A stretch of DNA of 9,222 nucleotides from a candidate division TA06 bacterium SM23_40. Lineage in GTDB: Bacteria; LJUI01; SM1-40. The translations under genes were made by a program, and so were the position numbers. Where the stretch lies: contig LJUI01000160.1 of NCBI GenBank assembly GCA_001303705.1, positions 1 to 9,222 on the forward strand, read 5' to 3'. Position 1 is the stretch's first letter. Each line of letters begins with the position of its first letter. Under the pieces are notes generated by a model. The model ran no database searches and was not told the DNA's origin. It saw only the letters and a list, made by a program, of their open reading frames with translations. This document shows positions 4,945-8,413 of the stretch, in pieces.

Positions 4945-4971
4945 AAAAACCGGGTGACCAGGGACCTATCG

Positions 4972-5427
4972 ATGGAAGGCAGTAAGATTACTGTGATGGT
5001 AATAGGGACTGAGCCAGTCTGTCCACGATGCGATCTGGTCGCACGTCTTGTCCAGGAGATCGCGAGGGAATCGAACGTCCAGGTCGACCTGCGGCACTTC
5101 GCATTCGACTCAGTGGACGCTCAGGCGCTCGGACGGCGACTGGGGCGAAACGTGGGGACCGCCAAGCACGTCGCGAAGGCTGCAGCCATCCCGGTCGACT
5201 GGGAAGCCGTTCACCGCCTGATTGATCGCAGGAAAGAAGTACTGGGGCCGGACGCGAGACCCGCGGACACATGGGCCCCGGAACTGGACCGGATGCTCGA
5301 GCCCTGCCGGCAGGCAGCTGAGTCCGTCGGATATCTCATGACTCCGGTCCTGGTAGTGAACGGTGTCGTCACGCACCATGGGAGCGTGCCCACGAGAGAG
5401 GAGATTCGCTCCTGGATCCTCGAGTGA
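4972..5427 (+). CDS. thioredoxin-fold protein with CPRC active site
   Basis: A 151-aa cytosolic redox protein. Strand KITVMVIG (5-12) leads into the active site C17-P-R-C20, followed by a helix (DLVARLVQEIARES) and strand VQVDLRHFAF. The late motif MTPVLVVNG (123-131) holds the cis-proline Thr124-Pro125 typical of thioredoxin-like folds, and the end TREEIRSWILE is the usual C-terminal helix. Between them lies an insertion of about 75 residues, mostly helical, with GTAKHVAKAAAIP (62-74) and an extra Cys112. That makes it longer than plain glutaredoxin-like proteins of about 80-110 aa. AGGGA at 4959-4963, 7 nt from ATG 4972, supports this start over GTG 4954, which has no ribosome binding site. 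Probable role: disulfide reduction or exchange. It could serve the peroxiredoxin encoded downstream, but the sequence does not prove that. Confidence 0.82.
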   Translation: MEGSKITVMVIGTEPVCPRCDLVARLVQEIARESNVQVDLRHFAFDSVDAQALGRRLGRNVGTAKHVAKAAAIPVDWEAVHRLIDRRKEVLGPDARPADTWAPELDRMLEPCRQAAESVGYLMTPVLVVNGVVTHHGSVPTREEIRSWILE

Positions 5428-7661: not shown

Positions 7662-7711
7662 GGGCCGTCACCACGTTGCCCTCAGCCACGGTACAGAGAA
7701 AGGAGACTGTG

Positions 7712-8413
7712 ATGCCGAAAATGAAAGATGGCTGTGTCAAACCGGCCAGGGGACCGATTCTCGAAGCCGCCGAGTCGACTACTCCAACTGGAAAAGCATT
7801 GCCACGGGAGGTAGGAAAGATGCAGGCACGTGTTGGTGCGGAGGCGCCGGATTTCGAGGCCAACGCCTTCGTCGCCGGTGAGGGTTTCAAACCGGTCAGA
7901 CTCTCGGCGTATAGGGGGAAATGGATCGTGCTATGCTTCTACCCGGGCGACTTCACATTCGTTTGACCGACAGAATTGGCAGCGGTCGCTGCCCGCTACG
8001 AAGAGCTGAAGTCGATGGGAGTGGAAGTGTTGGCGATGAGCACCGATAGCCGCTTTGTGCACAAGATGTGGCAGGAGCAAGAGCTATCGAAGATGGTCGA
8101 AGGCGGCGTCCCCTTCCCCATGCTTTCGGATGCCGGGGGGAAGATCGGGGCAATTTATGGCATCTATGATGATGCGGCTGGAGTTGATATTCGTGGACGG
8201 TTCATCATCGATCCCGATTTCGTGATTCGAGCTATGGAAGTCCTGACGCCGGAGGTGGGTCGCAACCCGGATGAACTAGTTCGTCAAGTCAAAGCATACC
8301 AGCATGTGGCGGCAACCGGTGAGGTGACGCCCTCGGGATGGCAGCCCGGAGAAGTGACACTGACACCTGGTCCCGATCTGGTTGGCAGAGTCTGGGAAAT
8401 CTGGAAACCATAG
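7712..8413 (+). CDS. selenocysteine peroxiredoxin (AhpC/TSA family), TGA read-through
   Basis: Predicted 233-aa thiol/selenol peroxidase reducing hydrogen peroxide or organic hydroperoxides in the cytosol. The frame is interrupted by TGA at 7964-7966 and continues unbroken to TAG. Residues 78-88 read P-G-D-F-T-F-V-U-P-T-E, so TGA (residue 85) replaces the peroxidatic Cys of PxxxTxxC. Downstream family motifs are intact: [11 protein letters not shown] (110-120), FPMLSD (135-140), Arg161 in RGRFIIDP, and [11 protein letters not shown] (182-192). A hairpin at 7978-7993 fits a bacterial SECIS. Where 2-Cys enzymes have a resolving Cys (EVCP), this has Thr206 (EVTP). The only cysteines are Cys8 and Cys75. 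AAAGGAG before ATG 7712 supports this start; GGAGG at 7807-7811 before ATG 7820 (Met37) offers a second one, without the 36-residue extension. Sec-containing peroxiredoxins are a known selenoprotein class. Confidence 0.92.
7964..7966 (+). other. recoded TGA (selenocysteine codon)
   Basis: In-frame TGA at codon 85, exactly at the catalytic cysteine position (FTFV-TGA-PTE). Reading from another start after it would lose the active site. TGA is an ordinary stop elsewhere in the window (for example at the ends of the cupin, thioredoxin-like, GNAT and TIM-barrel genes) and Trp uses TGG, so this is context-dependent recoding rather than a changed genetic code. Confidence 0.9.
7978..7993 (+). promoter_or_regulatory. 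SECIS-like hairpin within the peroxiredoxin gene
   Basis: GGCAGC (7978-7983) pairs perfectly with GCTGCC (7988-7993) around loop GGTC. The first loop G is 18 nt after the last base of the TGA. Bacterial SECIS elements are coding hairpins just downstream of the UGA with a small apical loop containing G (GGU in E. coli fdhF), which binds SelB. Position, stem and loop all agree. The stem encodes Ala90-Ala91-Val92-Ala93-Ala94 using four different alanine codons. Confidence 0.85.

Follow-up and report, generated by a model that had tools for sequence, protein, structure and literature searches.

Sec-peroxiredoxins, in which selenocysteine (Sec) takes the peroxidatic position, are an established family: 43 of their genes were found in the Sargasso Sea (PMC1088965), and early genomes yielded 12 Sec-peroxiredoxins with five Cys-to-Sec conversions (PMC1794560). 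The protein described here, PrxU, matches the NCBIfam family PrxU NF040737 (thioredoxin-dependent peroxiredoxin) over its full length, including the N-terminal extension, and the match itself shows no difference between the two. With the typical 2-Cys peroxiredoxins of the AhpC/Prx1 type, namely human Prx2 and Salmonella AhpC, it shares the fold (TM 0.89-0.93 on target), the PxxxTxx[C/U] motif and Arg161, whereas it has Sec for Cys and Thr for the C-terminal resolving Cys, and adds an N-terminal Cys tail as well as a putative second in-frame start. The Sec-peroxiredoxin of Eubacterium acidaminophilum, reportedly described by Sohling et al. in 2001, is said to resemble PrxU in being of the AhpC type with Sec at the peroxidatic position, and to differ from it in being shorter and lacking the 36-residue tail. 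Some bacterial genes, for example clpB, have two in-frame starts and give rise to a full-length and an N-terminally shortened isoform from one mRNA. The prxU gene appears to be alike in its two in-frame starts, the case for which is a comparative one throughout. Among peroxiredoxins and bacterial selenoproteins, we are aware of no other such case.

The window, that is, the whole stretch of DNA that was analysed, is an entire contig (C137) of 9,222 bases from a draft metagenome bin (2.88 Mb, 189 contigs, 89.8% complete). An earlier note on this DNA had pointed to a frame that reads through a TGA into AhpC-type sequence and that conventional gene calling would split, and both observations hold (Table 1). 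The frame reads ...GDFTFV-TGA-PTELAAV..., with 84 codons 5′ and 148 codons plus the stop 3′ of the TGA, and under table 11 it falls into two ORFs, one that stops at 7966 and a headless one that runs from TTG 7976 to 8413. The fused translation matches Pfam AhpC-TSA (E=1e-36) and scores 372.1 bits against NF040737, the cut-off being 270 (E=1e-111; residues 6-232 on positions 2-230 of the 233 of the profile). The base composition by codon position is similar 5′ and 3′ of the TGA. Of the two alternative frames, one has 8 stops and the other 6 in the part 3′ of it. As expected of a bacterial selenoprotein, the TGA falls where homologues have the catalytic Cys. Elsewhere in the window, the translations of the ORFs 1342-1557 and 1688-1930 are nearly identical, which suggests a direct repeat between genes within 1342-1930.

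Table 1. Features of the prxU locus (positions in the window)
Feature	Position	Strand	Basis
Shine-Dalgarno 1 (AAAGGAG), 6 nt before ATG 7712	7699..7705	+	sequence, homologue M1 sites
prxU long form, 233-residue Sec-peroxiredoxin through TGA	7712..8413	+	TGA=U translation, NF040737, Pfam AhpC-TSA
N-terminal tail motif, 12 residues; Cys8 codon 7733-7735	7724..7759	+	conserved in homologues
Shine-Dalgarno 2 (GGGAGGT), inside coding frame, 7 nt before ATG 7820	7806..7812	+	homologues
Predicted short form: internal start Met37, 197-residue peroxiredoxin core without Cys8 tail	7820..8413	+	codon-37 conservation
Cys75 codon, ten residues before Sec, in the core strand formed by residues 71-76	7934..7936	+	relatives, AlphaFold2 model
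Sec85 codon TGA, peroxidatic position in PxxxTxxU	7964..7966	+	translation, relatives, motif per PMC13188914
Putative bacterial SECIS hairpin GGCAGC-GGUC-GCUGCC, loop 7984-7987	7978..7993	+	fold, covariation
Thr206 codon at site of usual C-terminal resolving Cys	8327..8329	+	human Prx2 alignment, relatives

We compared prxU with 80 related loci from genomes labelled Chloroflexota, Nitrospirae, Acidobacteria, Aminicenantes, Armatimonadetes, Eisenbacteria, Krumholzibacteriia, Spirochaetales, Deltaproteobacteria and others. The Sec85 codon is TGA in 79/80 of these and Cys in 0/80. The sole exception (L094:2001-2498) has CGA (Arg) at this codon and lacks the N-terminal third of the protein, so that it looks like a decaying gene copy. 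In a wider set of 386 genomes, drawn from across the same domain, members scoring over the NF040737 cut-off were present in 24, with TGA at the right place in 23 of them; no selB match was found in G013, the genome of the lone Cys-form member (L105). The selB gene scored over its cut-off in all 26 TGA-form genomes vs 10 of 24 Cys-form genomes (Fisher p=2e-6), an association that is a consistency check only, since the genomes were picked for having a match. A second Sec-peroxiredoxin of its genome, L132 (G345:C1:2642278-2643280), has a signal peptide and Ala at the resolving position, and lies about 1.1 kb from selB.

The bSECIS model demands a G in the first two loop bases, a loop of 3-9 nt, a stem of 4-16 bp, a distance of 16-37 nt from the UGA and a minimum free energy of at most -7.5 (PMC13188914). 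Downstream of the prxU TGA there is a hairpin with the loop GGUC, a stem of 6 bp, a loop start 17 nt after the UGA and an energy of -11 kcal/mol, all within this model. Its pair 7981-7990, in which each partner is the synonymous third base of an Ala codon, is Watson-Crick in 79 of the 80 relatives (G-C 53, A-U 23, U-A 2, C-G 1; shuffled mean 43, maximum 56), shows the highest mutual information of all column pairs in the region, and has undergone about 19 changes on the tree. In an alignment of 16 diverse sequences, 97.3% of the cells are paired, with a covariation of 0.524 vs 0.176 for shuffled and at most 0.164 for slid alignments. It is on this covariation that we accept the SECIS, the z-score of the region folded as a single sequence not being significant; an Rfam search of the window, with a library that may have no bacterial SECIS family, gave no match. 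Support for the hairpin as a bacterial SECIS thus comes from compensatory changes in synonymous positions.

The earlier note had proposed that the source organism decodes UGA as Sec, a reading that the absence of selB or selC would have undermined. Both were looked for and found, so that the reading stands, and it is backed further by the TGA shared among the relatives. The note's additional proposal, a selenol peroxidase of high activity, is an inference. The same genome contains a tRNA-Sec with the anticodon tca (77.7 bits, gathering score 47), selB (392 bits) with selA (558 bits) adjoining it on contig C5, and selD (374 bits) directly after tRNA-Sec (L013:427-1470). SelD is itself a predicted selenoprotein, its in-frame TGA lying close to the N-terminus (U15), at what we take to be the catalytic Cys position. 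As prxU is alone on its own contig, it is tied to selABCD through binning; the GC content agrees (0.60 vs 0.59-0.63). Directly downstream of tRNA-Sec and selD, on contig C58, there is a secreted-looking ORF (L013:1766-2863) whose in-frame TGA falls in a UTGC motif (AELFTNYAUTGCTTANRV) and which has a weak Omp28 match just below the cut-off, making it a candidate for a third selenoprotein of this genome.

Two other readings of the TGA have to be weighed against Sec. If UGA were reassigned to Trp or Gly throughout the genome, an in-frame TGA would likewise be read through. However, TGA serves as the stop of 5 of the 10 main genes in the window, which argues that UGA is not reassigned throughout, while neither selA nor selB contains an internal TGA and the homologues carry the catalytic Cys at this position, not Trp or Gly. 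The ordinary stops elsewhere in the window refute such a reassignment, to which we give practically no credence. The TGA could, on the other hand, be a true stop, with the gene a pseudogene or the TGA a sequencing error for TGC or TGT. This would agree with the split gene that the standard code yields, and L094, a decayed fragment with CGA at the Sec codon, is a relative in which the gene has lost its integrity. Yet the TGA is conserved across many phyla, the protein is conserved on both sides of it, the SECIS shows compensatory changes, and the genome has the full Sec machinery. The conserved TGA and the covarying SECIS exclude a misread TGC or TGT in practice, as they do a pseudogene, and we regard a true stop as extremely improbable. 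We are thus highly confident, from strong genomic evidence, that the prxU TGA is read as Sec at the peroxidatic cysteine of one continuous peroxiredoxin frame. It is near certain that prxU encodes a Sec-peroxiredoxin, an already known kind of protein whose Sec occupies the position known from several Sec-decoding bacteria, as the earlier note had stated. That note did not mention the SECIS hairpin, the missing resolving Cys at the C-terminus, the conserved Cys-bearing tail at the N-terminus or the putative start within the gene.

An AlphaFold2 model built on 31 relatives has a mean pLDDT of 86.5; the core is mostly above 90, and the tail is flexible. Among PDB structures the model agrees best with human Prx2, Prx4 and Salmonella AhpC, human Prx2 being the top match, and it places Sec85 at the start of a helix, as in AhpC. 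The alignment columns of P78, T82, position 85 and R161 do not vary, such that PrxU carries the complete PxxxTxxC/U motif together with the Arg.

The resolving residue sets PrxU apart from typical 2-Cys enzymes. Where human Prx2 (PDB 5ijt) has GEVCPAGW, the aligned sequence of PrxU is GEVTPSGW, and among the 80 close relatives position 206 is Thr in 72 and Cys in 2, with 78 being non-Cys, unlike the typical 2-Cys pattern. Besides Sec85, the protein has Cys8 and Cys75 alone, both of which are invariant in close relatives (Cys75 in 80/80). Among 79 tailed homologues, Cys8 is present in 79/79, and the tail motif further shows Gly14 in 100%, Val9 in 99% and Pro15 in 95%; its third bases vary synonymously, which indicates that selection acts on the protein. 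Among 157 unique proteins, 106 of the 122 tailed vs 4 of the 35 untailed ones lack the C-terminal Cys, a comparison confounded by ancestry, the association involving about 8 changes on the tree. Cys8 is not a strict replacement, because 16 tailed proteins retain the C-terminal Cys, and L099, L105 and L130 have neither a tail Cys nor a C-terminal Cys while keeping Cys75. In a tailed subgroup with GCARPTG, part of the members keep both Cys residues, which fits a gain of the tail before the C-terminal Cys was lost. L177, a Cys form from genome G510, was considered as proof for Cys8, Cys75 being absent from it. It does not discriminate, since another Cys lies three residues past position 206.

Whether Cys8 on the N-terminal tail resolves Sec85 is, in our estimate, evenly balanced. 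Sec85 might instead be resolved without it, in a 1-Cys-type reduction by an external thiol or by Cys75, a route to which we assign a smaller, though appreciable, probability. The three proteins that lack both tail and C-terminal Cys and retain Cys75 speak for such a route, as does the ready reaction of selenenic acids with thiols (PMC8533274). Against this, Cys75 is located within a core strand of the AlphaFold2 model and would require large refolding, and a Cys8 so strictly kept, in a tail motif that is itself conserved, calls for a function.

The second unusual trait of prxU is the putative internal start. At the upstream start, M1, the mean Shine-Dalgarno (SD) match is 6.9 nt vs 2.6 at random positions (72 homologues). 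In the 79 extended homologues, all of which have an SD-like site ahead of codon 37 (99% with 5 or more nt matched), the whole gene matches the SD best at this point, with a mean of 7.2 nt vs an average of 3.0; the M1 site is equally good. Codon 37 itself is ATG in 60, GTG in 16 and another codon in 3 of them. Where it encodes Val, it is GTG in 16 of 17 cases (p=4e-7, shared ancestry ignored), and Glu33, within the second SD, is encoded by GAG in 75 of 76 cases vs 46% elsewhere (p=5e-24, shared ancestry likewise ignored), the GAG share at other conserved Glu columns being 23 to 65%. The site persists across many phyla in an otherwise unconserved linker, and 43 divergent tailed genes from whole genomes have the same internal SD (mean 6.1 nt). 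No frame-0 stop separates the two starts in any of the 79; of the other two frames, one is interrupted by stops in 66 and the other in 41. A further SD-like peak at codons 207-210 was rejected as a start; it is due to the protein motif GEV, has no start codon, and its Glu204 is GAG in only 65%.

In-gene SD-like sites have been proposed to slow ribosomes, and the AGGAGG at codons 32-34 could be such a pausing element, or else a relic of an ancestral start, with no active initiation. The relic variant draws on the fact that un-extended relatives begin at the place of codon 37, from which it follows that the internal start site is ancestral. However, a relic would be expected to decay in this linker, and neither variant fits well with ATG or GTG at codon 37 in 76 of 79 homologues at near-fixed spacing, with the preference for GTG among the Val codons and for GAG at Glu33, or with L052 and L055, where the internal SD site is retained in a different reading frame. 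We therefore judge a silent site to be unlikely, and dual initiation, with both ATG 7712 and ATG 7820 in use, to be probable. Two in-frame starts, each with its own SD, predict isoforms of 233 and 197 residues, with and without the Cys8 tail.

The following mechanism can be envisaged. UGA would be read as Sec by the SelB-Sec-tRNASec complex, aided by the hairpin, and Sec85 would attack peroxide in the usual PxxxTxxU/Arg active site. The resulting selenenic acid would most likely be resolved by Cys8 on the flexible tail, as the canonical C-terminal resolving Cys is gone, and the Se-S bond so formed would then be opened by a thioredoxin-type reductase. The contig of prxU also encodes, at 4954-5427, a small protein that matches Thioredoxin_3 and has a CPRC motif, and this protein is a possible redox partner. 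The two starts would supply tailed and tail-less subunits. Taken as a whole, the explanation by Sec reading, SECIS, two starts and resolution by Cys8 appears very probable from the sequences. We propose more tentatively, at slightly less than even confidence, that this widespread Sec-peroxiredoxin family has two isoforms, that Cys8 of the long form largely replaces the C-terminal Cys, and that mixed tailed and tail-less oligomers set the resolution of the selenenic acid.

With respect to novelty, we came across no description of the tail Cys, of the second start of PrxU or of the loss of the C-terminal resolving Cys in the PrxU family within the open-access literature that our search covered. 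The novelty of the tail Cys and the second start is thus provisional, and prxU is best seen as a PrxU member whose new features would be these two.

Such genes are split by gene callers, with the result that a large family of antioxidant selenoproteins in many uncultured bacteria is easily overlooked. If the two starts are real, a single selenoprotein gene would give rise to two functional forms. If the proposed role of Cys8 is true as well, the resolving residue would have left the C-terminus for a detachable tail at the N-terminus, and the effect of selenocysteine on peroxiredoxin chemistry would become directly testable.
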